This document shows, piece after piece, positions 38,127 to 53,289 of a stretch of 64,000 nt of DNA. The stretch lies in NCBI RefSeq assembly GCF_014126615.1, contig NZ_CP059897.1, positions 372,001 to 436,000 of the forward strand. Direction: 5' to 3'. The stretch is from Ciceribacter thiooxidans (lineage in GTDB: Bacteria; Pseudomonadota; Alphaproteobacteria; Rhizobiales; Rhizobiaceae). The position numbers and the translations under genes are program-made. How positions within the stretch are numbered: position 1 is the first letter of the stretch; each line of letters begins with the position of its first letter. A model generated the notes under the pieces. It did no database searches. It was given only the letters and a program-made list of their open reading frames with translations, and was not told the origin of the DNA.

Positions 38127-38846
38127 ATGTGTGACCTGTGTTCCGTGAATGCGACGAAACTGTCCCGGCGCGGGCTGCTCCTCGGCGGTGCGGCGCTTGC
38201 CGGTATGTCGATGACTGCGCCGACAGTGGCGTGGTCGCAGACGGCCACACCGCAGAACGCGATCTCACCGGATGCCGCGCTTGAGCGATTGATGGAGGGT
38301 AACGCCCGTTATGCCGCAAATACCTCGGCTAACAACGACTATTCGGCCGGCCGGGCAGCGCGTGTGAACGCGCAATATCCAATCGCCGCGATCCTGAGCT
38401 GCGCCGACGCACGCGTCGCTCCGGAGCTTGCCTTCGACCAGGGGCCGGGCGATCTTTTTGTGGTCCGCGTTGCCGGCAACTTCCTTAACGATGACGGGCT
38501 TGCGAGCTTCGAATACGCGGTGAAATACCTCAACACACCACTTCTGATGGTGCTCGGTCACTCCAATTGCGGCGCTGTCGGCGCGACGATCAAGGTGATC
38601 CAGGACGGCGTCACGCTGCCCGGTCACCTGCAGGACATGATCCGCGACATCAAGCCCGCGGTGGAGACGGCGGAAAAGGCGAAGCCCGCCGACTTGCTGT
38701 CCGCGTCGATCGCGGAGAACGTGCGTCTGGCGGCACATCGGCTCGAGACTGCCTCGCCGATCCTCTCGGAATATGTGAGCTCCGGAAAAGTGAAGGTCGT
38801 CGGCGCACAGTACGACCTCGCGACCGGCAAGATCGCGCTACTCTGA
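38127..38846 (+). CDS. Tat-exported beta-carbonic anhydrase
   Basis: This 239-residue beta-carbonic anhydrase hydrates CO2. The zinc ligands are Cys92 and Asp94 in SCADAR and His145 and Cys148 in GHSNCG, all conserved. The N-terminal SRRGLLLGGAALAGM is a twin-arginine signal, placing the enzyme in the periplasm, which is unusual since most beta-class enzymes are cytosolic. An N-terminal CxxC (MCDLC) precedes the signal. It stands alone. Confidence 0.9.
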   Translation: MCDLCSVNATKLSRRGLLLGGAALAGMSMTAPTVAWSQTATPQNAISPDAALERLMEGNARYAANTSANNDYSAGRAARVNAQYPIAAILSCADARVAPELAFDQGPGDLFVVRVAGNFLNDDGLASFEYAVKYLNTPLLMVLGHSNCGAVGATIKVIQDGVTLPGHLQDMIRDIKPAVETAEKAKPADLLSASIAENVRLAAHRLETASPILSEYVSSGKVKVVGAQYDLATGKIALL

Positions 38847-38889: not shown

Positions 38890-39861
38890 TCAGGACGTCG
38901 CCGCAGTCGCCTTCAGCAGAGAGCGTGCCGTCTCCTCGTCCGTAATGAGGCCGTTCACGTGGCCGCCACGCACGGCCGCCAGGATTGCCGCGTGCTTTCG
39001 CCGCCCACGCGCGAGACCGATGACCGTCGAGGTCTCCCGCGGAGGGATGGAAATACTGGCGACACGTTCGTTGACCGGATCGTCGAGAAGCCGGCCATCG
39101 GCGCCGAAGACCCAGCCGCAGATCTCGCCGGTCGCGCCGGTTTCGAGGAGCGCCTCCATTTCCGGGCGTTTCAGGAAGCCGTCGAGCAGCAGCGGTGCAT
39201 CGAGCCCCATATGGCCGATGCCGACGAAGGTGACATTGGCCTTCGATCCGAGTTCGATCGTCGGGGCGACGAGCGGCTGGCTGCGCAGGAGATCGCGTTC
39301 GGCGCGCGAGGAAACGAGAACCGGCAGCGGCATCGGGAAATGCGGCGCCTTCACCGCATCGGCCATCGAGAAGATGACGTTGAAATAGGCCGCCGATCCG
39401 TCCGGACTGATATTGCCGGTGAGTGACACGATCTTGTGCTGTGGGCACTCCATCGGCGACAGCTGGTCGATCACCGCCCGTAGCGTGCGACCGGTTCCCA
39501 TGCCGAGGATTAGCGGATCGGTGTGTTTCAGCCAGCGCTCGAGTTCGGCGGCGCCTGCCTCCGCCACCCCGACGGTCGCGGAATCCCCTCCGCCGTCGAA
39601 TGACGGCACGACTTCGACCTGCTTCAGGCCGAACTTGTCTTTCAGCCCCTCCGCAAGCTCCATGCAGGCCGCTATCGGATGATCGAGCCGGACCTTGATC
39701 AGCTTCTCCGCAACGGAAAGCGAGACGAGCCTTTGCGCACTCTGGCGCGAAATCCCCATGGCCGCGGCAATCTCGTCCTGCGTGCGGCCGGCGACGTAGT
39801 AGAGCCAGCCAGCCCGCGCCGCGTCGTCAAGCCGTGTCTGCCCTTCCGATCGTCTCGCCAT
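38890..39861 (-). CDS. SorC/DeoR-type sugar-binding transcriptional regulator
   Basis: This 323-residue regulator has an N-terminal helix-turn-helix (YYVAGRTQDEIAAAMGISRQSAQRLVSLS, residues 21-49). A large C-terminal sugar-phosphate-binding domain follows, with GMGTGRTLRAVIDQL and GIGHMGLDAPLLLDGFL. It is adjacent to but not in the CoA-transferase operon and may regulate a distant sugar pathway. Confidence 0.85.
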   Translation of the reverse strand: MARRSEGQTRLDDAARAGWLYYVAGRTQDEIAAAMGISRQSAQRLVSLSVAEKLIKVRLDHPIAACMELAEGLKDKFGLKQVEVVPSFDGGGDSATVGVAEAGAAELERWLKHTDPLILGMGTGRTLRAVIDQLSPMECPQHKIVSLTGNISPDGSAAYFNVIFSMADAVKAPHFPMPLPVLVSSRAERDLLRSQPLVAPTIELGSKANVTFVGIGHMGLDAPLLLDGFLKRPEMEALLETGATGEICGWVFGADGRLLDDPVNERVASISIPPRETSTVIGLARGRRKHAAILAAVRGGHVNGLITDEETARSLLKATAATS

Positions 39862-40043: not shown

Positions 40044-41204
40044 ATGCAGGATAGATCCGAGTCGTTGCTGGCGGGTCTCACCGTCATCGACATGAGCCAG
40101 TTCCTTTCGGGTCCCTATTGTTCGTTGCGCCTTCTCGATCTCGGCGCCCGGGTGATCAAAGTGGAGCGGCCCGACGGCGGAGATCTGTCGCGACGACTTT
40201 ATCTCAGCGACACCGACGTCGGCGGAGACTCCACCCTCTTCCATGCGATCAATCGCGGCAAGGAAAGCCTCGGCATCGACCTCAAGAACCCGGAGGACCT
40301 CGCCTTCCTGCGCAAGCTGCTGGCGAAGGCCGACGTGATGATCCAGAATTTCCGGCCGGGCGTCATCGAGCGGCTCGGCCTCGACTACGAGGCCGTCAAG
40401 GCGATCAACCCCTCCATCGTCTATGCCTCGATCAGCGGCTATGGCGAGGAAGGTCCGTGGATGATGCGGCCGGGGCAGGACCTTCTCGCGCAGGCCCGTT
40501 CCGGCGTGATGTGGCTCAACGGCGACGATGGCCAGGGACCCGTGCCGGTCGGCCTTTCGATTGCGGACATGCTTGCGGGCGCCAATACCTGCGAAGGGAT
40601 CCTTGCCGCCCTCGTCCGACGCGGCCTGTCCGGCAAGGGCGCGCACGTCCAGACGAGCCTGCTCGAGAGCCTCATCGACCTGCAGTTCGAGCTTTTGACG
40701 ACGCACCTGAACGACGGCCGGCGGATGCCGAAGCGCGCCGCCTTCCGCAACGCCAATGCCTATCTCTCGGCACCCTACGGCGTCTATCCGGCGCGCGACG
40801 GTTATCTCGCGATCGCCATGACACCGATCGGTCGCCTGCAGGATCTTATTGGCCTCGACGCCTTGTCGCCCTTCCGCGACGACCCGAAGTCCTGGTTCAC
40901 GCATCGAGACGAGATCAAGTCGATCATCGCCGGGCGGATCGCCGAGGAGACCGTCGGCCACTGGCTTTCGATTCTCGAACCCGCCGACATCTGGTGCTCG
41001 AAAGTCCTCGACTGGGAGGAACTCCTGTCCAGCGAAGGCTTCGCCGTGCTCGACATGCTGCAGACCGTGACACGAAAGGACGACATCTCGATCGGCACGA
41101 CACGTTGCCCGGTCCGGATAGACGGCGTGCGTCCGAAGGGCGGACGCGCCGCGCCGCTCGTCGGCGAACACACGGCAGCCATCCGCGCGGAGTTCGACCG
41201 ATGA
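40044..41204 (+). CDS. CaiB/BaiF-type CoA-transferase
   Basis: This class-III CoA-transferase has 386 residues and is expected to move CoA between organic acids. Family features include LTVIDMSQFLSGPYCSLRLLDLGARVIKVERP, DVMIQNFRPGVIERLGLDYE and the likely catalytic Asp in PGQDLLAQA (about residue 150). Its TGA overlaps the ATG of the next gene (ATGA), so the two are coupled. Together with the MaoC gene it hints at a CoA-thioester branch of the locus; substrates are unknown. Confidence 0.87.
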   Translation: MQDRSESLLAGLTVIDMSQFLSGPYCSLRLLDLGARVIKVERPDGGDLSRRLYLSDTDVGGDSTLFHAINRGKESLGIDLKNPEDLAFLRKLLAKADVMIQNFRPGVIERLGLDYEAVKAINPSIVYASISGYGEEGPWMMRPGQDLLAQARSGVMWLNGDDGQGPVPVGLSIADMLAGANTCEGILAALVRRGLSGKGAHVQTSLLESLIDLQFELLTTHLNDGRRMPKRAAFRNANAYLSAPYGVYPARDGYLAIAMTPIGRLQDLIGLDALSPFRDDPKSWFTHRDEIKSIIAGRIAEETVGHWLSILEPADIWCSKVLDWEELLSSEGFAVLDMLQTVTRKDDISIGTTRCPVRIDGVRPKGGRAAPLVGEHTAAIRAEFDR

Positions 41205-42346
41205 TCCGTCGCCTGAAAGGCATGACCTGGAGCCATCCCCGCGGCTACGACCCGATGGTCGCCTGCTCGGCCGACTGGCTGTCGACGACGGGCGTCGCCA
41301 TCGACTGGGACAAGCGTTCGCTGCAGGATTTCGAGAGTTTCCCGGTCGAGGAGCTCGCCCGCCAATACGACCTGATCGTGATCGACCATCCGCATGTCGG
41401 CCAGATCACCGCGGAAGGCTGTTTGGCACCGCTCGACATACCCGGGCGTCACGGGGACCTGGCAGAGTTGGCGAAGGCCAGCGTCGGCGCCTCGTTTCCG
41501 AGCTACAATTGGCGCGGCCGGCAATGGGCCCTTCCGATCGACGCGGCAGCCCAAGTGCTCGCCTGGCGCCCCGACCGGCTCGGCATCGCGCCGACACAAT
41601 GGAGCGAGGTTCTCGATCTTGCCCGTAACGGTGAAGTGCTGTTGCCGCTACTTCCGCCGCACTCGCTTATGGGTTTTTTCACGCTCTGCGGCCAACTCGG
41701 GCGACCCTGCTCTGTCGCAGCGGAAAAACCGTTTGCGGATGTTGAGATCGGCGAACGCGCCCTGGAGATGATCCGCGAACTTGCCAGCCTAGTCGATCCG
41801 GCTTGCTTCGCCGCGGACCCGATCGCGGTCCTCGACCTCATCGGCGAGGTCGGATCACCCTTCGCAGTGTCGCCACTCATCTACGGCTACGTCAGCTATT
41901 CGCTCGAAGGCTTCCGCGCCAACCGCATCGCGTTCGCCGATTTGTCCGGCGGCGAGGCACTCGGGCCGGTCGGCTCGGCGCTCGGCGGCACGGGCATTGC
42001 GGTTTCCGCCTTCTCGGCCGATCGGGGTGCAACAATCGACTTCGCCTACTGGGTCGCCGGCGAGGCGATCCAGGCCGGTCCTTACTGGCGCTCGGGTGGC
42101 CAGCCCGGCCACGCTGCGGCGTGGGACGACGGCAAAGCCAATGCCGCGACACTCGACTTCTATCGCGCGACCCGCCGCACGCTGGAGGGCGCATGGCTGC
42201 GGCCGCGCCACAACGGCTACATGCCCTTCCAGGAGAAAGCCTCTCACATCGTCAACGCTGCGGTCTCGGGCGACATCTCTGTCGCGCATGCGATCGAGCG
42301 CCTGAACGACGACTTCCGGCGAAGCTTCGGGGCTGATGAACCCTGA
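41201..42346 (+). CDS. Solute-binding-fold protein without signal peptide
   Basis: This 381-residue protein resembles ABC sugar-binding proteins of family 1 (RGRQWALPIDAAAQVLAWRPDRLG, VAVSAFSADRGATIDFAYWVAG). It starts at MIRRLKGMTWSHPRGYDP, with no hydrophobic signal sequence and no candidate start upstream. It is translationally coupled to the CoA-transferase. It probably acts in the cytoplasm, as a ligand sensor, carrier or enzyme partner; an alternative is a mis-called start or loss of export. Confidence 0.75.
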   Translation: MIRRLKGMTWSHPRGYDPMVACSADWLSTTGVAIDWDKRSLQDFESFPVEELARQYDLIVIDHPHVGQITAEGCLAPLDIPGRHGDLAELAKASVGASFPSYNWRGRQWALPIDAAAQVLAWRPDRLGIAPTQWSEVLDLARNGEVLLPLLPPHSLMGFFTLCGQLGRPCSVAAEKPFADVEIGERALEMIRELASLVDPACFAADPIAVLDLIGEVGSPFAVSPLIYGYVSYSLEGFRANRIAFADLSGGEALGPVGSALGGTGIAVSAFSADRGATIDFAYWVAGEAIQAGPYWRSGGQPGHAAAWDDGKANAATLDFYRATRRTLEGAWLRPRHNGYMPFQEKASHIVNAAVSGDISVAHAIERLNDDFRRSFGADEP

Positions 42347-42386: not shown

Positions 42387-43223
42387 TCAGGTGAGACGCC
42401 AGATCCTGCGGGCATTGGCGGAGAATACCTTTTCCCTGTCCTGGAGGCTGACACCGGACAGCAGGGCCTGGGTTGCCCCGACCCAGGTCGAGAGACCCCC
42501 GCCGAGCGTGCAGACGGGCCAATCGCTGCCCCATACCATACGATCGAAGCCGAACGTCTCGGCCACATGCGAGAAATACGGCTTTAGATCCTCGAGCGTC
42601 CAGTCCTCCACTCCGTAGGCGGGGAGCCCGGAGAGCTTGACCGTCACATTCGGCCGCCGGGAGATCTCCGCAAGCGGTCCTTCCCAGGCTTCGAACCCGC
42701 CGCCCTTGATGTCGGGCACGCCGCAGTGGTCGAGAATGAACGGGACGTCCGGCGCGAGGTCGGCAAGGGCGATCGCCTTCCCGATCTGGTGCGGCAGCAC
42801 GCAGAGATCGAAGGTCAGACCCGTCCCGGCGAGCCTCTTCACATTCTCGCGAAACAGGCTTCCCTCGGACACGTCGTCCGGCACCACATGCAGCACGCGA
42901 CGGAAGCCCCTCACGAAACCGTTGGCGCGGACCCGCTCCAGATAGTCGGCGAAGCCCGCCTGTTCCGGCCGGCAGGAGGCAATCGCGCCGACGAGGAGGC
43001 TTTTCTCCGCTCCGGCGAGATCACCGACGAGAGCCGTTTCGCGCTCGATGTCCTCCTCTGCGACATCGACTTCCATGTGGAGAGTCGCGCCGATGCCCAG
43101 CCTGCGCGCTTCCCGCGCATAGCGCTCGTAGGTGAAGTCGGCATCGAGCGGCGGAACGCTCTTCAGCCATGGATAGGAAAGCCGTTCGCGGTAGATGAGA
43201 TGCAGATGGGTGTCGACGATCAT
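42387..43223 (-). CDS. TIM-barrel amidohydrolase, probable sugar lactonase
   Basis: This amidohydrolase-2-type enzyme has 278 residues. The metal motif DTHLHL is at the N-terminus and ILDHCGVPD and WGSDWPV supply the remaining His/Asp, as in COG3618 L-fuconolactone and rhamnonolactone hydrolases. GAGGAGG precedes the ATG at 43223. By linkage it would open L-fucono-1,5-lactone to L-fuconate. It converges on the CoA-transferase operon, and an IclR-type motif precedes it. Confidence 0.85.
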   Translation of the reverse strand: MIVDTHLHLIYRERLSYPWLKSVPPLDADFTYERYAREARRLGIGATLHMEVDVAEEDIERETALVGDLAGAEKSLLVGAIASCRPEQAGFADYLERVRANGFVRGFRRVLHVVPDDVSEGSLFRENVKRLAGTGLTFDLCVLPHQIGKAIALADLAPDVPFILDHCGVPDIKGGGFEAWEGPLAEISRRPNVTVKLSGLPAYGVEDWTLEDLKPYFSHVAETFGFDRMVWGSDWPVCTLGGGLSTWVGATQALLSGVSLQDREKVFSANARRIWRLT

Positions 43224-43275
43224 GCCGCGGGTCCTCCTCTTTATGTGCAAAGACCATGCCACAGAAAAATCACCC

Positions 43276-43289
43276 ATTCAAATACGAAT
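43276..43289. promoter_or_regulatory. Candidate IclR operator upstream of amidohydrolase
   Basis: ATTCAAATACGAAT lies 53-66 bases upstream of the amidohydrolase start, just after the IclR stop at 43300. It is the best-formed copy of the motif also found upstream of the CoA-transferase (39982-39995) and the sugar-binding protein (44116-44190), with ATTC/GAAT arms. Confidence 0.6.
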
Positions 43290-43299
43290 TCCCCCGGAC

Positions 43300-44097
43300 T
43301 CAGGAATCCTTTTGAAAACCGGAGCCGGCCATTTCCGAAAGCCGGTGGGTGGTCTCGGCGAGAAGATGAATGGTGCTCGAAATGTCCGGGGCGCCCGGGG
43401 TGTTGATCAATGTGATATAAGGCACGGTGAGCGCGGCGATCGCCTTGCCGTCGGCTCCAAGGACAGGCGCGGAAAGGTTGATGACGCCGGCAGTCTGGGC
43501 GCTCGGCATCATCTCGTAGCCGCGCGAGCGTATCTGGTCGAGCCTGGCCAAGAATTCCGCCGTCACCTTGCTCTGATCGCCGCCACTGCCGAGATACTCG
43601 GCGATCATCATCTTGCGCTCTTCCGGCGTGCGGAATGCGAGCAGGACATGTCCCGAACCTGTGTCGAACAGGCTGATGCGCGATCCGACACGGATCGAGA
43701 TACCCCAGTAGCCCGGCGCCTCCTGCTGCGCGATGACAACCGGATTGCCGCGGTCGAAGACCACCAGCTGGTTCGCCTGGCGGGACGCCTCGGCGAGCTC
43801 GCGCATCAAAGGGACGGCGAAGGACACAAGGCGACGAACCGGGGCGTGGAGCTGCGCAAGACCAAAGAGCTTCAACGTCAGCGTAAACCGATCGCCATCG
43901 ATCCTGGTGACATATCCGCGTTTCACTAACCGGTCGAGCATACGGTAGAATTCATTGGGGCTGCGGTCGAGCCGCTTGGCGATTTCCGCCTGTGTCAGCC
44001 CACCGTCGACGGCCGCAAGAAGCTCGAGAATGTCGAGCCCCTTGTCGAGGGCAGGCGCACGGTAGCGATCATTCTCGTCTTCTGACACGCATTTCAC
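43300..44097 (-). CDS. IclR-family transcriptional regulator
   Basis: This 265-residue IclR regulator has the N-terminal winged helix (LDKGLDILELLAAVDGGLTQAEIAKRLDRSPNEFYRMLDRLVKRGYV) and a C-terminal effector domain ending with ALTVPYITLINTP. It is divergent from the fucose-type transporter operon. A palindromic motif recurring at three gene starts in the region is its likely binding site. The effector is expected to be a pathway sugar or acid. Confidence 0.9.
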   Translation of the reverse strand: MKCVSEDENDRYRAPALDKGLDILELLAAVDGGLTQAEIAKRLDRSPNEFYRMLDRLVKRGYVTRIDGDRFTLTLKLFGLAQLHAPVRRLVSFAVPLMRELAEASRQANQLVVFDRGNPVVIAQQEAPGYWGISIRVGSRISLFDTGSGHVLLAFRTPEERKMMIAEYLGSGGDQSKVTAEFLARLDQIRSRGYEMMPSAQTAGVINLSAPVLGADGKAIAALTVPYITLINTPGAPDISSTIHLLAETTHRLSEMAGSGFQKDS

Positions 44098-44238: not shown

Positions 44239-45555
44239 ATGTCTAGATTTCTGACCGGCGTCGCAGCCGGCGCCCTGATATGTGCTTCGGCGGGGTTGGC
44301 CATCGCTGCCGACCTGCCCGGCAAGTTCGACGGTGTGACGATCGACGCCAAGCTGATCGGCGGCCAGCAATACGAAGCCCTCTATGCCCGCATCGCCGAA
44401 TGGGAGAAGCTGACCGGCGCCAAGGTCAATGTGCTGTCGAAGAAGAATCACTTCGAGCTCGACAAGGAAATCAAGTCAGACATCGCAACGGGGAACATCA
44501 CCTGGTGCGTGGGATCGAACCACTCGTCCTTCGCTCCGCAATATCCCGACGTCTACACCGACCTGGCGGCGCTCCTTCCGAAGGAGGAGATCGACGCCTT
44601 CGTGCCGGCCAACATCAAGGCCTCCACGCTCGACGGCAAGCTGGTGATGCTGCCGCGCGCCCAGTTCGACGTCTCAGCGCTCTACTATCAGAAGGGCCTC
44701 TATCAGGACGAAGCCAAGAAGAAGGCATTTAAGGAAAAGTACGGATACGATCTCGCCCCGCCGGATACCTGGCAGCAGGTGACGGATCAGGCCATTTTCT
44801 TCTCGAGCCCGCCGGACTTCTACGGCACCCAGTTCGCCGGCAAGGAAGAGGCGATCAACGGTCGCTTCTATGAAATGCTCGTCGCCGAAGGCGGCGAGTA
44901 CCTCGATGCGGACGGCAAGCCCGCCTTCAATTCGGAAGCCGGTGTCCGTGCGCTCGACTGGTTCGTCAACCTCTACAAGGCCAAGGCCGTCCCGGCCGGC
45001 ACCACCAACTACCTCTGGGACGATCTCGGCCAGGGCTTTGCCTCCGGTACCATCGCCGTCAATCTCGATTGGCCTGGCTGGGCGAGCTTCTTCAACGACC
45101 CGAAGTCTTCGAAGGTCGCCGGCAATGTCGGCGTGAAGGTCCAGCCGGCCGGCTCATCCGGCAAGCGGACGGGCTGGTCGGGTCATCATGGCTTCTCGGT
45201 CACCGAAAGCTGCGCGAACAAGGACGCTGCCGCCTCCCTCGTCTGGTTCCTCACCAACGAGGACAGTCAAAAGCTCGAAGCCGCTGCCGGACCCCTTCCG
45301 ACCCGCACTGCGGTTTGGGAATGGGACATCAAGCAGGCCGAGAACGATCCTTACAAGAAGGAAGTCCTGAGCGCCTTCCAGGAGGCGGCACAGCACGCCT
45401 TCCCGGTTCCGCAGACCCCGTCCTGGATCGAGATCTCGAACGCCGTCTATCCGGAGCTCCAGGCTGCGATCCTCGGCGACAAGACCTCGAAACAAGCCCT
45501 CGACGACGCCGCCAAGAAGGCGACGGAAATCCTCGAGGACGCGGGCGAGCTGTAA
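44239..45555 (+). CDS. Sugar ABC transporter substrate-binding protein (family 1)
   Basis: This 438-residue protein starts with a signal peptide (MSRFLTGVAAGALICASAGL, cleavage near AIA). The mature part is a family-1 sugar-binding protein, with an N-terminal lobe containing YEALYARIAEWEKLTGAKV and the C-lobe LVWFLTNEDSQKLEAAAGPLPTR. GGGAGGAG precedes the ATG. The following permease and ATPase genes complete the importer. L-fucose or a related deoxyhexose is the predicted ligand, by gene context only. Confidence 0.88.
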   Translation: MSRFLTGVAAGALICASAGLAIAADLPGKFDGVTIDAKLIGGQQYEALYARIAEWEKLTGAKVNVLSKKNHFELDKEIKSDIATGNITWCVGSNHSSFAPQYPDVYTDLAALLPKEEIDAFVPANIKASTLDGKLVMLPRAQFDVSALYYQKGLYQDEAKKKAFKEKYGYDLAPPDTWQQVTDQAIFFSSPPDFYGTQFAGKEEAINGRFYEMLVAEGGEYLDADGKPAFNSEAGVRALDWFVNLYKAKAVPAGTTNYLWDDLGQGFASGTIAVNLDWPGWASFFNDPKSSKVAGNVGVKVQPAGSSGKRTGWSGHHGFSVTESCANKDAAASLVWFLTNEDSQKLEAAAGPLPTRTAVWEWDIKQAENDPYKKEVLSAFQEAAQHAFPVPQTPSWIEISNAVYPELQAAILGDKTSKQALDDAAKKATEILEDAGEL

Positions 45556-45765: not shown

Positions 45766-46662
45766 ATGAAAGGCTGGAGACCCCCGGCAACCGTCCTGCT
45801 TCTGCTGCCCGCATTCATCGTCCTGGCAGCCGTCGTCGTCATCCCGCTCCTGCTATCGCTCTATTCGAGCTTCACGCCCTTCCGGCTGACGCAGCCGGCC
45901 TCGCTCTACAATTTCATCGGCTTCCGCAACTATGCGCGCATCCTGACCGACATCGAGTTCTGGACCGCATTCGGACGAACCGTGCTTCTGCTGACAGTCG
46001 CGCTCAACATGGAAATGCTGCTCGGCCTCGGCCTTGCCATGCTGGTCGAGAAAGCGACGTCCGGGCAACGCGTGTTGCGAACCATCATGATGTTCCCGAT
46101 GATGTTCTCGCCGATCCTCGTCGGCTTCCAGTTCAAGTTCATGTTCAACGACAATGTCGGGCTGATCAACAATGCGCTGCAGTCGCTCGGCCTAACGACC
46201 CAGGCGATCCCGTGGCTGATCGATGGTCAGCTCGCCTTCTGGGCGATCACGATTGCAGAGGTCTGGTCCTCCACCTCCGTCTTCGCAATCCTCATCCTCG
46301 CCGGCCTGCTCGCGATGCCGAAGGAGCCGATCGAGGCTGCGCGCGTGGACGGCTGCACGCCCTGGCAAACCTTCCGATACGTGACCTGGCCGTTCGTCAT
46401 GCCGTTTGCCTACATCGCGATGACGATCCGCTCGCTCGACGTAGCGCGCGCCTACGATATCGTGAAGATCATGACGGACGGTGGTCCGGCCAAGCGCACG
46501 GAGCTTCTCTGGACGCTGGTTTCGCGAACAGCCTATTCGGACGCCCGCATGGGGCTCGCCAACGCCATGGCCTATGTCGCGATCCTGCTCTCTATTCTCT
46601 TCACCGTCTACTTCTACCGGAAGCTGGCGGCAGCCCGCACCCAGATTGCCGCGGAGTGGTGA
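45766..46662 (+). CDS. Sugar ABC transporter permease (MalF/UgpA-type)
   Basis: This 298-residue permease has six hydrophobic helices and the EAA-type loop KEPIEAARVDGCTPWQTFRYVTWPFVMP near residue 190. It is one of a permease pair, with 1 base between its stop and the start of the next gene. It belongs to the importer of the fucose operon. Confidence 0.9.
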   Translation: MKGWRPPATVLLLLPAFIVLAAVVVIPLLLSLYSSFTPFRLTQPASLYNFIGFRNYARILTDIEFWTAFGRTVLLLTVALNMEMLLGLGLAMLVEKATSGQRVLRTIMMFPMMFSPILVGFQFKFMFNDNVGLINNALQSLGLTTQAIPWLIDGQLAFWAITIAEVWSSTSVFAILILAGLLAMPKEPIEAARVDGCTPWQTFRYVTWPFVMPFAYIAMTIRSLDVARAYDIVKIMTDGGPAKRTELLWTLVSRTAYSDARMGLANAMAYVAILLSILFTVYFYRKLAAARTQIAAEW

Positions 46663-46663
46663 G

Positions 46664-47530
46664 ATGAACGAAAACGCCCAACATCGCCTAAAGGCCGGCC
46701 TGCTCTCCGCCGCCCACAAGATCGGCCTCTTTCTCGCCATGGCCGTCATCTGCCTGCCGGGTCTCTGGATCGTGCTCGCCTCCTTCCGCCCGACGGTCGA
46801 GATCATGGCAAAGCCGCCGGTCTGGATCCCACAGGACCTGTCGCTCGAAGCCTACATCGCCATGTTCTCCGGTGTTGGCCAGGGCGGCATCCCGATCATC
46901 GACTATTTCCGCAATTCGCTGATCATCTCGGTGACCTCGACGGCGATCTCGCTGGCGATCGGCATGGCCGGCGGCTACGCCTTCGCCCGCTACCGCTTCA
47001 AGGCAAAATCCGCAATCTTTCTCGGCCTCATGCTGACGCGCACGGTGCCGGGCATCGCGCTCTCGCTTCCGCTCTTCTTCGTCTATGCCAAGCTCGGCAT
47101 CATCGACACGCATTTCGGCATGATCCTCGTCTATGTCGCGCTCAACGTTCCCTTCACGATTTGGCTGATCGACGGCTTCTTCCGCCAGGTGCCGAAGGAT
47201 CTCGCCGAGGCCGCACAGATCGACGGCTGCACGCGCTGGCAGGCCTTCTGGCAGGTCGAATTTCCGCTGGCGGGCCCGGGCATCGCTTCCGCCGGCATCT
47301 TCGCCTTCCTCACCTCGTGGAACGAATTCGCGCTCGCATCGCAACTCACCCGGTCCACCAATTCCAAAACACTCCCCGTCGGGCTGCTCGACTACACCGC
47401 CGAATTCACGATTGACTGGCGCGGCATGTGCGCGCTGGCGGTCGTGATGATCATCCCGGCGCTTGTGCTGACCTTCATCGTGCAGAAGCATCTCGTTTCC
47501 GGCCTCACCTCCGGCGCAGTCAAAGGATAG
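46664..47530 (+). CDS. Sugar ABC transporter permease (MalG/UgpE-type)
   Basis: This 288-residue permease is the second of the pair. The ATPase-docking loop reads KDLAEAAQIDGCTRWQAFWQVEFPLAGPG. The ATG at 46664 follows the previous TGA by 1 base. A longer open frame upstream overlaps the first permease and is not used. Hydrophobic segments fit six membrane helices. Confidence 0.9.
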   Translation: MNENAQHRLKAGLLSAAHKIGLFLAMAVICLPGLWIVLASFRPTVEIMAKPPVWIPQDLSLEAYIAMFSGVGQGGIPIIDYFRNSLIISVTSTAISLAIGMAGGYAFARYRFKAKSAIFLGLMLTRTVPGIALSLPLFFVYAKLGIIDTHFGMILVYVALNVPFTIWLIDGFFRQVPKDLAEAAQIDGCTRWQAFWQVEFPLAGPGIASAGIFAFLTSWNEFALASQLTRSTNSKTLPVGLLDYTAEFTIDWRGMCALAVVMIIPALVLTFIVQKHLVSGLTSGAVKG

Positions 47531-47533
47531 ACC

Positions 47534-48631
47534 ATGGCAACCGTCACCCTCGAAAAGCTGGTCAAGCGCTATGGCGCCCTCGACGTGGTTCACGGCATCG
47601 ACCTCGAAGTCGCCGATCGCGAATTCATTGCCCTCGTCGGGCCGTCCGGTTGCGGCAAGTCGACCACGCTTCGCATGATCGCGGGCCTCGAACCGATCTC
47701 GGGCGGAAACCTCAAGATCGGTGGCCGTGTCGTCAACGACCTGCCGCCACGTGCACGCAATCTCGCGATGGTCTTCCAGTCCTACGCCCTCTACCCGCAC
47801 ATGACGGTCCGCGAGAACATGGGGTTCTCGCTCAAGATCGCCGGTATGAAACCGGACGAAATCGCTCCGCGGGTGGAGGAAGCGGCGCGCACGCTCGATC
47901 TCACCCAGTTGCTGGACCGCAGGCCCTCGCAGCTTTCCGGCGGCCAGCGCCAGCGCGTCGCCATGGGACGGGCGATCGTCCGCAATCCCGAGGTCTTCCT
48001 GTTCGATGAACCGCTCTCCAACCTCGATGCCAAGCTGCGCACGCAGATGCGCACCGAGATCAAGAAGCTCCACGCCAAGGTCCAGTCAACGGTCATCTAC
48101 GTCACCCATGACCAGGTCGAGGCAATGACGCTCGCCGATCGCATCGTCATCATGCGCGACGGCTATATCGAACAGGTCGGCACGCCAGAGGACGTCTTCC
48201 AGCGCCCGGCCTCGAAATTCGTCGCCGGATTCATCGGCTCCCCGCCGATGAATCTCAAGGATGCCGAGATTGCAGATGGCCGCGTAGTCTTCGCCAATGG
48301 TGAAAGCCTGCCCCTGCCGAAACAGTTTTCCGGAAGGGTGAATACCGGCCAGAAAGTGACCTTTGGCCTGCGCCCCGACGACCTTTATCCGGCGGGCCAC
48401 GGCATCCACTCGGGTCATGAGACTGACGTCCACACCGCGAACCTGAGCGTCACGATCACGGAACCTCTTGGCAACGAGACGCTGGTGTTTGCCGATTTCG
48501 GCGCCGGCGAATGGGTGGCGCGCATGCTGAACCCGCGTCCGGTACGTTCCGGAGAGACGATGGCCTTCTGCTTCGATCTCTCGCAGGCCCATCTCTTCGA
48601 CCGGGAAACCGGCAGCACACTGAGAGGCTGA
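47534..48631 (+). CDS. Sugar ABC transporter ATP-binding protein (UgpC/MsmK-type)
   Basis: This 365-residue ATPase has Walker [10 protein letters not shown], signature [36 protein letters not shown] and a C-terminal TOBE-like regulatory domain. It drives the family-1 importer encoded just upstream; 3 bases separate it from the permease gene. The MsmK/UgpC type is shared by many oligosaccharide and sugar importers. Confidence 0.92.
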
Positions 48632-48632
48632 C

Positions 48633-49742
48633 ATGGCACGCATCGAGCGCATCGAACTCAAAATGGTCGACCTTCGCCCGAAGGTCGAACGCACCGACGC
48701 CATCCAGAGCTTCGTCAGCCAGGAAACGCCGATCGTCACGATTACCGACAGCGACGGCGCCGTCGGCACCGGCTACAGCTACACGATCGGCACCGGCGGC
48801 TCCTCGGTCATGCGCCTGCTTGCGGATCATTTGGCACCCCGCATTCTCGGCCGCGATGCCGACCAGATCGAGGCGATCTGGCGCGAGCTCGAGTTCCTGA
48901 CCCACGCCACCACGATCGGCGCCATCACCTCGATTGCGCTCGCGGCAGTCGATACCGCGCTCTGGGACCTGCGCGCGCGCAAACAGAACCTGCCCCTCTG
49001 GAAGCTCGCGGGTGGCGCCAAGGACCGCTGCCCGCTCTACACCACCGAGGGCGGCTGGCTGCACATTCCGACAGAGGCCCTTGTCGAGGATGCATTGGAA
49101 GCAAGGGCCCAAGGCTTCACCGGTTCGAAGATCAAGATCGGCAGATCCCACGGAACAGAGGACCTGGCACGGCTCACGGCCGTTCGCGAGGCGGTTGGCG
49201 ACAGCTACGAGATCATGACCGACGCCAATCAGGGCTTTGCGGTCGACGAGGCGATCCGGCGGGCCGGGCGGCTGCAGGAGCTTGATCTCGCCTGGATCGA
49301 GGAACCCCTGCCGGCGGACGACATCGACGGCCATGTGCGGCTCAACCGTTCCACGATCACGCCCATTGCGATCGGGGAGTCGCTCTATTCGATCCGTCAC
49401 TTCCGCGAATACATGCAAAAGGGCGCCTGCTCCGTCGTTCAGGCCGACGCCGGCCGGATCGGCGGCATCACGCCCTGGCTCAAGGTCGCCCATGCCGCAG
49501 AAGCCTTCGACATGCCGGTCTGTCCGCATTTCCTGATGGAACTGCATGTGAGCCTCACCTGCGCAGTTCAGAACGGCAAATATGTCGAGTACATTCCGCA
49601 GCTCGACGACATCACGACGTCGCGGCTCGTCGTCGAGAACGGCATGGCACTCGCCCCGTCGACGCCGGGCCTCGGTATTGCGTGGGACTGGGAGGCGATC
49701 GCCGCCCGCGCCATACCCGAATTCAGTCGCGACATTCGCTAG
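48633..49742 (+). CDS. Mandelate racemase/enolase-superfamily acid-sugar dehydratase-like enzyme
   Basis: This 369-residue enzyme has the enolase-superfamily catalytic set: Lys166 and Lys168 in SKIKIG, Asp197 in TDANQGF, Glu223/224 in WIEEPL, Glu249 in AIGESLYS, and His299 in PHF. This matches mandelate-racemase-like sugar acid dehydratases. It is the first enzyme gene after the transporter, 2 bases from the ATPase. A separate L-fuconate dehydratase is also encoded in this operon, so this protein may act on a second acid (for example L-rhamnonate-, galactonate- or arabinonate-type). Confidence 0.82.
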   Translation: MARIERIELKMVDLRPKVERTDAIQSFVSQETPIVTITDSDGAVGTGYSYTIGTGGSSVMRLLADHLAPRILGRDADQIEAIWRELEFLTHATTIGAITSIALAAVDTALWDLRARKQNLPLWKLAGGAKDRCPLYTTEGGWLHIPTEALVEDALEARAQGFTGSKIKIGRSHGTEDLARLTAVREAVGDSYEIMTDANQGFAVDEAIRRAGRLQELDLAWIEEPLPADDIDGHVRLNRSTITPIAIGESLYSIRHFREYMQKGACSVVQADAGRIGGITPWLKVAHAAEAFDMPVCPHFLMELHVSLTCAVQNGKYVEYIPQLDDITTSRLVVENGMALAPSTPGLGIAWDWEAIAARAIPEFSRDIR

Positions 49743-50117: not shown

Positions 50118-51188
50118 ATGACCTTCGATCCGAGGACCCTTTCGCAGTCATGGCGGCTGCCGTCGAACCTAAGTCCGATCGTGACCTTCGGAGCCGGTTC
50201 GATCGTCGACGACGCACACTACCCGGCCTACGCAAAAGGCGGCTTCCCGGTCGCCGGTCTCTATGATCCCGACCACGAGAAGGCAAAAGCGCTCGCGGAC
50301 AAATGGGGCGTGAAAGCCTACCCGACCATTGAGGAAGCGGCAGCGGTCGACAACGCGATCTTCGACCTCGCAACGCCGCCGGCCGCCCACGCCAAGGTAC
50401 TCGCCGCCCTTCCCGACGGCGCCGCAGTGCTCATCCAGAAGCCGATGGGTACGGATCTGGCCGCCGCGACCGAGATCCTCACTCTCTGCCGGGAAAAAAG
50501 GCTCAAGGCTGCCGTCAATTTCCAGCTTCGCTTCGCGCCGATGATGCTTGCGCTGAAGGACGCGATCGCCAAGGGACTGTTGGGCGAGGTCGTCGACTTC
50601 GATGTCTATCTGGCACTCGATACGCCCTGGGAGCTCTGGGCGTTTCTCGAACGGTTACCGCGCGTCGAGATCGCCATGCACTCGATCCATTATCTCGATC
50701 TGATCCGGCAGGTGCTCGGCGATCCGCAGGGCGTGCATGCAAAGTCGATCGGCCACCCGAACCATAGCATGGCCCAGACGCGCACGACCGCGATCCTCGA
50801 TTACGGCGAACGCATCCGCTGCGCCCTGTCCATCAATCATGACCACAAGTTCGGGCGCCGTCATCAGGCCTGCGAGTTCCGCGTCTGCGGAACGGAAGGA
50901 GCAGCCTACATACAGTTGGGGGTCAACCTTGACTACCCGCGCGGCGAACCGGACATCCTGGAGATCTATCCGAAGGGTGGCGACGGATGGGTCACCGTTC
51001 CTCTCGAAGGCACTTGGTTCCCCGACGCCTTCGGCGGTCGCATGGCCAATCTTCAACGCTACGCCTCCGGCGAGGACCGCGAGCTCGTCTCCTCGGTCGA
51101 GGATGCTTGGATGACCATGGCACTTGTCGAAGCGCTCTATGCCTCCAGTGCCGCCCCCGCCACCCCGCTCGCCGCCAGACCGCAGTGA
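50118..51188 (+). CDS. Gfo/Idh/MocA-family oxidoreductase with altered EKP motif
   Basis: This 356-residue oxidoreductase has the N-terminal Rossmann motif FGAGSIVDDAHYPAYAKGGF and the dehydrogenase/isomerase-type C-terminal domain. The usual EKP is QKP (in LIQKPMGTD), so the conserved Glu is replaced. A sugar or sugar acid dehydrogenase is likely (L-fucose or another aldose). GGGAGAGGAG precedes the ATG. Confidence 0.82.
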   Translation: MTFDPRTLSQSWRLPSNLSPIVTFGAGSIVDDAHYPAYAKGGFPVAGLYDPDHEKAKALADKWGVKAYPTIEEAAAVDNAIFDLATPPAAHAKVLAALPDGAAVLIQKPMGTDLAAATEILTLCREKRLKAAVNFQLRFAPMMLALKDAIAKGLLGEVVDFDVYLALDTPWELWAFLERLPRVEIAMHSIHYLDLIRQVLGDPQGVHAKSIGHPNHSMAQTRTTAILDYGERIRCALSINHDHKFGRRHQACEFRVCGTEGAAYIQLGVNLDYPRGEPDILEIYPKGGDGWVTVPLEGTWFPDAFGGRMANLQRYASGEDRELVSSVEDAWMTMALVEALYASSAAPATPLAARPQ

Positions 51189-51650: not shown

Positions 51651-51677
51651 ATGCCCATGAGAGAAAAGGAAGAAGAT

Positions 51678-52427
51678 ATGTCCGTCCCCCTTCAATCAAA
51701 ACGCGCACTTGTGACGGCATCGGGCCAGGGGATTGGCCGAGCGAGTGCGCTGGCCTTTGCGCGGGCGGGCGCAAGCGTGGTCGCGACCGACATTAATGAA
51801 GGGGCGCTCGACGGGCTCGCCGCGGAGGCGAAGGCCGAAGGGCTGGCCCTCGAGACCCGCGTGCTCGACGTCCTGAAGGATGCCGCCGTGGCAGACGTCG
51901 TCTCGGCCACCGGTCCCTTCGACGTCCTCTTCAACTGCGCCGGTTTCGTCCATTCCGGCACCGTGCTGGACATGGCCGACAAGGACCTCGACTTCGCCTT
52001 CGATCTCAACGTCCGCGCCATGATCCGCACCATCCGCGCCGTGCTGCCGGGCATGATCGCGAAGGGTGACGGTTCGATCATCAACATGGCCTCGGTCGCC
52101 TCTAGCGTGAAGGGCGTGCCCAACCGCTGCGCCTACACCGTCACCAAGGCCGCCGTCATCGGGCTGACCAAGTCGGTCGCCGCCGACTTCGTCGCACAAG
52201 GCATCCGCGTGAACGCCATCTGCCCCGGCACGGTCGAAAGCCCCTCCCTGCAGGAGCGCATGAAGGCGCAGGGCGACTACGAGACGGCACGCGCCGCCTT
52301 CATCGTCCGCCAGCCGATGGGACGGCTCGGAACCCCGGAAGAAATCGCCGGCCTCGCCGTCTATCTCGCAACCGCCACCTATACATCCGGCCAGGCCTAC
52401 GCCATCGATGGCGGCTGGACGATCTAA
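51678..52427 (+). CDS. SDR oxidoreductase, 2-keto-3-deoxy-L-fuconate dehydrogenase-like
   Basis: This 249-residue SDR has TASGQGIG at residues 13-20, FNCAG (85-89), Tyr153 and Lys157 in CAYTVTK. It resembles BDH2/UcpA-type and Xanthomonas 2-keto-3-deoxy-L-fuconate dehydrogenases. In the L-fucose pathway this enzyme oxidises C4 to make 2,4-diketo-3-deoxy-L-fuconate. AAAGGAAG precedes the ATG at 51678. Confidence 0.83.
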   Translation: MSVPLQSKRALVTASGQGIGRASALAFARAGASVVATDINEGALDGLAAEAKAEGLALETRVLDVLKDAAVADVVSATGPFDVLFNCAGFVHSGTVLDMADKDLDFAFDLNVRAMIRTIRAVLPGMIAKGDGSIINMASVASSVKGVPNRCAYTVTKAAVIGLTKSVAADFVAQGIRVNAICPGTVESPSLQERMKAQGDYETARAAFIVRQPMGRLGTPEEIAGLAVYLATATYTSGQAYAIDGGWTI

Positions 52428-52449
52428 CCCCTCTCGAAAGGAAACTCCC

Positions 52450-53289
52450 ATGAAACTGATGCGCGTCGGCCCGCCCGGCCGGGAAAAGCCGGCCCTCCTC
52501 GACAAGGACGGCAAGGTCCGCGATCTCTCCGCCCATGTCGCCGACATCGGCGGTGCGGCCATCTCCCCCGAAGGCCTGCAGAAGATCGCGGCAATCGACC
52601 CGGCCTCGCTGCCGGAGCTTTCCGTGGACCGCATCGGTGCTTGCGTTGCCGGCACCGGCAAGTTCATCTGCATCGGGCTCAACTATTCCGACCATGCCGC
52701 CGAGACCGGTGCGACCGTCCCGCCCGAGCCGGTGATCTTCATGAAGGCGACCTCGGCCATCTGCGGTCCCGATGACGAGGTGCGCATTCCCCGCGGCTCG
52801 GAAAAGACCGACTGGGAAGTCGAGCTCGGCGTCGTCATCGGCAAGACCGCAAAATATGTCTCCGAGGCCGACGCCCTCGATTACGTCGCCGGCTACTGCG
52901 TCTCCCACGACGTTTCCGAGCGCGGCTTCCAGACCGAACGTGCCGGCCAGTGGACCAAGGGCAAGTCGTGCGACACCTTCGGCCCGATCGGCCCCTGGCT
53001 CGTCACGAAGGACGAGGTCGCCGACCCACAGAACCTCCCGATGTGGCTGAAGGTCAACGGCGAGACCATGCAGGACGGTTCCTCGAAGACCATGGTCTAC
53101 GGCGTCGCCTTCCTCGTCTCTTACCTGAGCCAGTTCATGTCGCTCCATCCCGGCGACGTCATCTCCACCGGCACGCCTCCCGGCGTCGGAATGGGCATGA
53201 AGCCGCCACGCTACCTCAGGGACGGCGACACCGTCGAACTCGGTATCCAGGGACTCGGTACACAAAAACAGACGTTCAGAGCCGATTGA
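52450..53289 (+). CDS. FAH-family hydrolase, 2,4-diketo-3-deoxy-L-fuconate hydrolase-like
   Basis: This 279-residue FAH-fold protein opens MKLMRVGPPGREKPALLDK and has the metal-binding EVELGVVIG and core CIGLNYSDHAAE. In the L-fucose pathway this family splits 2,4-diketo-3-deoxy-L-fuconate to pyruvate and L-lactate. GAAAGGAAACTCCC precedes the ATG. It follows the SDR of the preceding step and is followed by the fuconate dehydratase, which supports this role. Confidence 0.87.
   Translation: MKLMRVGPPGREKPALLDKDGKVRDLSAHVADIGGAAISPEGLQKIAAIDPASLPELSVDRIGACVAGTGKFICIGLNYSDHAAETGATVPPEPVIFMKATSAICGPDDEVRIPRGSEKTDWEVELGVVIGKTAKYVSEADALDYVAGYCVSHDVSERGFQTERAGQWTKGKSCDTFGPIGPWLVTKDEVADPQNLPMWLKVNGETMQDGSSKTMVYGVAFLVSYLSQFMSLHPGDVISTGTPPGVGMGMKPPRYLRDGDTVELGIQGLGTQKQTFRAD

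Follow-up and report, generated by a model that had tools for sequence, protein, structure and literature searches.

A solute-binding-fold protein without a signal peptide, genomically linked to a family III coenzyme A transferase in Ciceribacter thiooxidans and other bacteria

The window analyzed here is a stretch of 64,000 nucleotides from Ciceribacter thiooxidans (NZ_CP059897.1, positions 372,001 to 436,000), part of a 1.38-Mb contig in a genome of 5.04 Mb and two contigs. It encodes a family III coenzyme A (CoA)-transferase of the CaiB/BaiF type (CaiB), directly followed by a MalE-type solute-binding-fold protein that lacks a signal peptide (SBPL; Table 1). The two genes join in the letters ATGA, a 4-nt overlap in which the start codon of SBPL (ATG, 41201–41203) runs into the stop codon of CaiB (TGA, 41202–41204). 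An earlier reading of this DNA, made from the sequence alone, had singled out such a pair of a CaiB/BaiF protein and a sugar-binding-like protein with overlapping stop and start. Its coordinates, its family assignments and the overlap were borne out by the open reading frames (ORFs), the Pfam matches and the ATGA join. A longer ORF of 742 amino acids (40118–42346) was rejected as a protein, the SBPL frame being merely open through the CaiB gene. Gene overlaps of 4 nt are frequent in bacterial operons, so that a single one between CaiB and SBPL carries little weight. What speaks against chance is that it is conserved.

Conservation was assessed in two samples of loci. Besides the window, the close set of 84 loci includes three plasmid loci and the 80 top matches in GTDB species genomes, and its members are hence close relatives. 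CaiB lies directly upstream of SBPL in 84/84 of them, with a gap of at most 178 bp, and the exact 4-nt overlap was found in 74; the start codon is unresolved for L084 and L100, and the matches of L082 and L101 hold a partial CaiB. One species-level genome set contains at least 550 stretches encoding SBPL. The copy on plasmid NZ_CP084754.1, labelled Roseateles, is 73% identical to that of the window and as close as the copies of Rhizobiaceae, which reflects either a recent transfer or a mislabelled record.

The wider set, which is less biased, was drawn from 297 order-level and 397 phylum-level genomes and covers 68 of 72 SBPL places. These 72 are 55 from the order-level scan plus 17 that were new among 25; those left unfetched are one in G130, two in G183 and the second place in G134. 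In 44 of the 68 the nearest CaiB adjoins SBPL on the same strand, 22 times upstream and 22 times downstream, and it is never adjacent on the opposite strand. For the rest, CaiB lies within 1.5 kb in two and at 1.5–10 kb in eight, while the first flank held none in 14. Wider flanks fetched for 12 of these 14 revealed CaiB in nine, and the remaining two are whole short contigs. CaiB was present within the fetched sequence in 62/68 places: 46 of the 52 loci with longer flanks, by marker count, and all 16 short ones, which have about 1.5 kb of flank on each side and CaiB adjacent in every case. In a 63rd locus, L140, the edge of the stretch truncates CaiB, which another search showed whole. Adjacency in both gene orders is a pattern that shared ancestry alone is hard put to explain.

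The presence of the two genes in genomes points the same way. SBPL occurs in 41 of the 297 order-level genomes. Three SBPL-linked types of CaiB (E ≤ 1e-100) occur in 26, 7 and 15 genomes, 34 when combined, and all 34 are among the 41 with SBPL. Seven SBPL genomes do not carry these three types, and in two of these (G029, G181) a different CaiB was found in the flanks. For 52 SBPL/CaiB pairs (51 loci and the window; L001, identical to the window, and L155 were left out), the distance matrices gave an uncorrected correlation of r = 0.83, compared with a maximum of 0.29 in 2000 permutations. In a quick, midpoint-rooted tree of 91 CaiB rows, with long branches flagged, the linked proteins all fall into one group of 81 rows (SH-aLRT 99), separate from 10 unlinked paralogues that come from ten genomes. 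A chance neighborhood of SBPL and CaiB was rejected on the basis of the conserved adjacency, the two gene orders and the co-occurrence. The genome survey that the sequence-only reading had proposed upheld the tie, and the conserved linkage makes it unlikely that the two proteins have unrelated functions, which that reading had named, together with a lack of interaction, as one possible refutation.

The CaiB protein belongs to the family III CoA-transferases by its domain and an aspartate, which predict CoA-transferase activity. The CoA_transf_3 domain spans residues 9–377 of 386, and the protein aligns over its full length with solved formyl-CoA and succinate/hydroxymethylglutarate CoA-transferases. 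D175 aligned with the conserved Asp of these solved relatives, which we take to be the catalytic Asp of the family, and is kept at 95% or more in 52 partner CaiBs. In both features CaiB resembles the formyl-CoA, succinate-glutarate, mesaconate and carnitine CoA-transferases; it differs from the known enzymes in falling below every specific NCBIfam cut-off and in having SBPL as a companion. We know of no family III CoA-transferase with a partner of the solute-binding protein (SBP) fold. Naming CaiB after an NCBIfam model was rejected, every CoA-transferase model that matched being far below its cut-off. Two local peculiarities of partner CaiBs were seen. On pSymB of S. meliloti 1021 (L031:7833–8983) the match to the partner of SBPL is split over two reading frames, whereas it is a single frame in another S. 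meliloti strain (L032). In L156 and L157, two genomes of two other families in the same phylum, two tandem CaiB matches directly follow SBPL and are followed by an enoyl-CoA hydratase (ECH).

The SBP_bac_8 match of SBPL is weak (4e-07; 30.5 bits at a cut-off of 27) and no NCBIfam model matched; SBP_bac_8 was present in 17 members of a 19-member SBPL set. An AlphaFold2 model built with 72 sequences reached a pLDDT of 82.8 and a pTM of 0.82, with residues 66–73 poorly predicted. Its best Foldseek match was MalE3 of T. maritima (6dtq; 2.7e-14, TM 0.71). LpqY, TMBP and SmoF were also matched, many of the 50 best matches being fusions to the maltose-binding protein (MBP) tag. A profile of the 19 members in turn matched TMBP (1.8e-14) and LpqY. 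Of 964 Foldseek matches at E ≤ 0.001, the 50 best include no SBP-fold enzyme of the cyclohexadienyl dehydratase or MqnA kind, and filing SBPL with such enzymes is therefore unsupported by the fold search. In Pfam only SBP families matched at E ≤ 0.1, with no DNA-binding or signaling domain. SgrR-like regulators are cytoplasmic SBP-domain proteins with a fused DNA-binding domain, and SBPL differs from them in having no such fusion. A phage origin was rejected, as no match was found in a phage collection.

The absence of a signal peptide was claimed by the sequence-only reading, which allowed that one might have been missed upstream. The claim held for upstream stops, alternative starts and N-terminal hydrophobicity, and the family loci yielded no missed signal peptide. 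In 22 of the 68 SBPL places, the 10 codons before the residue-1 position include an in-frame stop, leaving no room there for a signal peptide. An alternative start 11–60 codons upstream is available in 11/68, none of which yields a signal-like hydrophobic stretch, nor does any in 83 closer loci. With the start taken as the nearest start codon within 14 codons, the conserved W10, at which the first strand of the model ends, is preceded by 5–18 residues in a set of 74 SBPL members (L143 and L155, cut or interrupted, were dropped). A further set of rows was thinned from 79 to 71, with the short L079 left out. The most hydrophobic 11-mer among the first 30 residues reached a mean Kyte–Doolittle value of 1.8 in 0/74 SBPL members, compared with 79/81 homologues of SBPx, the exported SBP that is encoded further downstream in the window. 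SBPL is therefore presumed, by sequence, to be cytoplasmic.

The putative pocket residues of SBPL are conserved. R14, D62, D114, Q301, W308 and R334 are invariant across the 74 members, H63, Y102, Y230, Y233 and Q291 are nearly so, and W10 and S101 are invariant or nearly so, at identities to the window protein down to about 30%. Because this residue set does not vary, a ligand or a chemistry common to the family is suggested; the pocket usually varies among transport SBPs with different ligands. In a profile alignment with hand-counted positions, D62 aligned with Asp80 of LpqY and R334 with Arg404. In LpqY (PMC7949145), both residues contact trehalose and Arg404Ala abolishes binding. SBPL is thus predicted still to close on a sugar-like ligand. 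Compared with MalE3, TMBP, LpqY and SmoF (MalE-type, cluster D), it shares the fold (TM about 0.7) and the sugar-anchoring Asp and Arg, and it differs in the missing signal peptide, in having a CoA-transferase as genomic partner, and in polar residues that stay invariant across distant members.

The composition of the gene clusters was counted in the 52 places with longer flanks by tblastn marker searches. MaoC or enoyl-CoA hydratase was found in 43, all with CaiB (MaoC in 23, ECH in 21). Sugar ATP-binding cassette (ABC) permeases were found in 39, IclR or LacI regulators in 41 and short-chain dehydrogenases (SDR) in 30, these three counts being upper bounds for true neighbors owing to the promiscuity of the marker families. 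Gfo/Idh/MocA, MR/MLE and fumarylacetoacetate-hydrolase (FAH) markers followed with 18, 15 and 2. An alpha-L-fucosidase is encoded in the related clusters of Croceibacterium (L236) and Halostagnicola (L237), and RhaT, an L-rhamnose symporter, in those of Rufibacter (L230) and Persicobacter (L231), which makes a 6-deoxy-L-sugar a reasonable guess for the substrate of the window type of cluster. A second type (L149, L151, L152, L124, L167, L228, L241) combines, in varied ways, genes for Gfo/Idh/MocA, an AP_endonuc_2 (xylose-isomerase-like) barrel, DUF4432 and SDR with CaiB, SBPL, ECH and FAH-family genes, and probably acts on another substrate. On a plasmid of Methylobacterium nodulans (L233:7318–11714), genes for MaoC, CaiB, SBPL and an AMP-binding protein of the acyl-CoA synthetase family stand in a row.

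SBPL and CaiB also occur together in Variovorax (L149), in the Actinomycetota (Streptomyces, next to each other in L228 and separated by about 2.6 kb in L148) and in the Bacteroidota (Rufibacter, Persicobacter). The two Bacteroidota loci have the gene order SBPL, CaiB, CaiB, SBPL2, where SBPL2 is a second signal-less family. It is 25% identical to SBPx of the window (4e-21) and has no detectable BLASTP similarity to SBPL, and is thus assigned to a different SBP branch. Its members sit in clusters that also encode CaiB and MaoC, and come from Bacteroidota, a haloarchaeon and some Alphaproteobacteria. In Persicobacter, Croceibacterium and Halostagnicola they lack a hydrophobic leader and start only a few residues ahead of the first conserved motif; L164 is likewise leaderless when read by eye, and the annotated Rufibacter SBPL2 starts late. 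The family is rare, with hits in 2/397 phylum-level genomes at E ≤ 1e-50, both of one genus and both in SBPL clusters (L161, L164). The uptake genes annotated in the two Bacteroidota loci are RhaT and outer-membrane genes of the SusD/TonB type, and the annotation of the 19 kb of either locus shows neither an ABC permease nor an ABC ATPase. The company of SBPL2 and CaiB with RhaT in the place of an ABC system points away from transport.

In the window itself, the pair is followed by a larger set of putative sugar-uptake and sugar-oxidation genes (Table 1). A divergently encoded regulator with a sugar-binding domain of the SorC/DeoR type possibly regulates the pair. SBPx, which gave no Pfam match at E 0.1, is followed by permease and ATPase genes and is presumed to be an ordinary transporter component. 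Clusters for the oxidative (diketo-hydrolase) pathway of L-fucose and L-rhamnose contain a lactonase, dehydratases, an SDR, an FAH hydrolase, a mutarotase and a sugar ABC transporter. The window shares with them its lactonase-like amidohydrolase, MR/MLE dehydratases, SDR, FAH protein, mutarotase and ABC transporter, and differs in its CoA-transferase, MaoC hydratase and signal-less SBP, none of which that pathway needs to our knowledge. Upstream of the pair and beyond the SorC-type regulator, a carbonic-anhydrase-like ORF with a twin-arginine-like N-terminus (RRGLLLGG; 38127–38846) was identified by eye.

Table 1. Features of the window around the CaiB/SBPL pair, and members of the SBPL2 family at other loci (locus handle before the coordinates)
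Feature	Coordinates	Strand	Evidence and remarks
SorC/DeoR-type sugar-binding regulator, divergent from the pair	38890–39861	-	Pfam Sugar-bind 1.3e-65
CaiB, family III CoA-transferase (CaiB/BaiF type), 386 aa	40044–41204	+	Pfam CoA_transf_3 6.4e-99
SBPL, MalE-type solute-binding-fold protein without signal peptide, 381 aa	41201–42346	+	Pfam SBP_bac_8 4e-07
Amidohydrolase_2, L-fuconolactonase-like	42387–43277	-	Pfam Amidohydro_2 7.7e-58; NCBIfam FuconLaconase 6.4e-22, far below cut-off; recurrent neighbor
IclR-family regulator	43300–44097	-	Pfam IclR_C 1.1e-16; recurrent neighbor
SBPx, exported sugar SBP	44239–45555	+	Hydrophobic, signal-peptide-like N-terminus; weak NCBIfam GanS and MalE
Sugar ABC permease	45766–46662	+	Homology to annotated loci
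Sugar ABC permease	~46661–47530	+	Homology to annotated loci
UgpC-type ATPase	47534–48631	+	NCBIfam UgpC 8.6e-146, above cut-off
MR/MLE (enolase superfamily) dehydratase, L-talarate/galactarate dehydratase-like	48633–49742	+	Pfam MR_MLE_C 5.5e-67; NCBIfam TalGalacDh 3.2e-87, below cut-off
L-rhamnose mutarotase family (RhaM), 109 aa	49755–50084	+	Pfam rhaM 7.2e-34
Gfo/Idh/MocA dehydrogenase	50118–51188	+	Pfam GFO_IDH_MocA 2.6e-13
MaoC-type hydratase, 150 aa	51198–51650	+	Pfam MaoC_dehydratas 8.5e-24; recurrent third partner of SBPL and CaiB
Short-chain dehydrogenase	51651–52427	+	Pfam adh_short_C2 2e-53
Fumarylacetoacetate-hydrolase family protein	52408–53289	+	Pfam FAA_hydrolase 4.2e-75
Second MR/MLE dehydratase, 425 aa	53320–54597	+	Pfam MR_MLE_C 6.6e-64
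SBPL2, Rufibacter	L230:12655–13782		
SBPL2, Persicobacter	L231:12445–13677		
SBPL2, Croceibacterium	L236:8992–10179		
SBPL2, Halostagnicola	L237:8992–10227		
SBPL2	L164:12767–13930		

Taken together, these data suggest that SBPL has left ABC transport and is part of an intracellular, CoA-dependent module of sugar catabolism. The view builds on features read from sequence, namely the fold, the missing signal peptide, the linkage and co-occurrence with CaiB, and the two sugar-anchoring residues that are kept. That SBPL belongs functionally to the module of CaiB and hydratase is very likely. Its role there is a more tentative matter, and the one we lean toward is that of a partner that may bind a sugar acid, or the CoA ester of that acid, and serve the CaiB step. 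In the proposed scheme, an imported sugar, probably a 6-deoxy sugar in clusters of the window type, would be oxidized to a sugar acid or a product thereof. SBPL would close on this acid or on its CoA ester and work beside CaiB, so that the CoA-transferase would receive, or release, a hydrophilic acid. The MaoC-type or enoyl-CoA hydratase would then act on the CoA thioester. A more general proposal, that Venus-flytrap proteins were recruited on two or more occasions (SBPL and SBPL2) to load CoA-transferases within the cell, as subunits presenting a sugar-derived acid, is doubtful. The parts are of known kinds and their combination looks new; word searches of open-licence papers found no description of an SBP-fold partner of a CoA-transferase.

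Several observations weigh against this reading, and in particular against SBPL and CaiB being merely the two subunits of one enzyme. The co-occurrence and the distance correlation (r = 0.83) are uncorrected for species phylogeny. Four rows of the 81-row CaiB group (L205, L206, L207, L214) have no SBPL within about 8 kb on either side, and in several families SBPL lies about 4–12 kb from CaiB, with CaiB staying beside the hydratase. Likewise in L225 and L227, otherwise clusters of the SBPL type, CaiB is directly beside ECH with no local SBPL, and both genomes carry SBPL elsewhere. L171 combines an SBPL of the window type with a different type of CaiB, meaning that the partnership is not one-to-one, and a further CaiB is divergent from SBPL in L161, L164 and L236. 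The six of 52 places in which the marker count lacked CaiB are L140 (edge-cut, and possessing one), the short contigs L125 and L143, and L117, L141 and L142, where SBPL was present and no CaiB was found in the roughly 28–42 kb fetched. As for SBPL2, the two Bacteroidota loci are the only ones in which it adjoins CaiB; it comes after a gene for an ABC permease in L164 and in Croceibacterium, and in Halostagnicola sits between an AMP-binding gene and MaoC, with the CoA-transferase about 2.9 kb away. The separated and missing pairs indicate that SBPL, though linked to CaiB, is a component of the pathway that need not be encoded with it. Of the cytoplasmic binding-fold protein tied to a CoA-transferase that the sequence-only reading had envisaged, the fold, the missing signal peptide (and with it a presumably cytoplasmic location) and a conserved tie thus stand, while strict coupling is not universal.

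The binding partner competes most closely with a second possibility, ranked just below it and nearly as likely, in which SBPL has turned into a cofactor-free enzyme catalyzing an elimination, hydration, epimerization or C–C step, with CaiB, the hydratase and SBPL as successive enzymes. The (near-)invariant polar and aromatic residues would suit a catalyst, and so would the position of SBPL away from CaiB within some clusters, as might be expected of a pathway enzyme. MqnA is an enzyme with the SBP fold. A precedent for the conversion is cyclohexadienyl dehydratase, which evolved from an amino-acid SBP (PMC7683729). SBPL resembles these two enzymes in that the fold is used outside transport; they derive from other SBP subfamilies and do not appear among its 50 best fold matches, whereas SBPL is linked to CoA enzymes. 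Those 50 matches are sugar SBPs and MBP-derived constructs, and the retained sugar-anchoring Asp and Arg fit binding equally well.

It is improbable that SBPL acts outside the CoA chemistry, as a cytoplasmic sensor or buffer of a pathway intermediate that modulates an IclR, LacI or SorC regulator or the transporter. IclR or LacI markers were present in 41/52 places, an upper bound for these promiscuous families, and IclR directly follows SBPL in one group (L132, L134–L136, L140, L168, L173). Nevertheless, the type of regulator varies from cluster to cluster (IclR, LacI, GntR, SorC, DeoR) while CaiB stays, SBPL has no DNA-binding or signaling domain by Pfam, and its adjacency is mostly to CaiB, with stop–start overlaps.

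That the pair is a hitch-hiking relic, co-transferred by chance without a joint function, is very unlikely: many SBPL loci are on plasmids and megaplasmids, but the occurrence of the pair in either gene order, with several types of CaiB and in several phyla, and the 34/34 co-occurrence speak against it. Least tenable of all is that SBPL serves ordinary transport, with a signal peptide that was overlooked or by another way of export, as its public annotation as an extracellular or ABC-transporter substrate-binding protein would have it; against this stand the N-termini (none of 74 signal-like, versus 79/81 for SBPx homologues), the upstream stops in 22/68 places with no signal-like alternative start in any of the 68, the separate exported SBP of the window cluster, and the two Bacteroidota loci with no annotated ABC permease.

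The sequence-only reading had offered a carrier, a sensor or a transferase partner as roles for SBPL, and these are still a list of possibilities. The wider module, the broad distribution and the second signal-less SBP lineage are additions to it. SBPL proteins are publicly annotated as extracellular transport receptors, which misreads a widespread part of sugar catabolism that is apparently cytoplasmic. A role in presenting a substrate to CaiB would put the SBP fold to a new use, and an enzymatic role would add another instance of the passage from SBP to enzyme, this time from the sugar-binding branch. Were the substrate-loading proposal true, the clusters would represent a widespread CoA-dependent sugar-acid pathway not previously described. 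Either as partner or as enzyme, SBPL would indicate that bacteria of soil, plants and the sea have a CoA-dependent route for acids derived from sugars, which the SBPL/CaiB clusters make testable.

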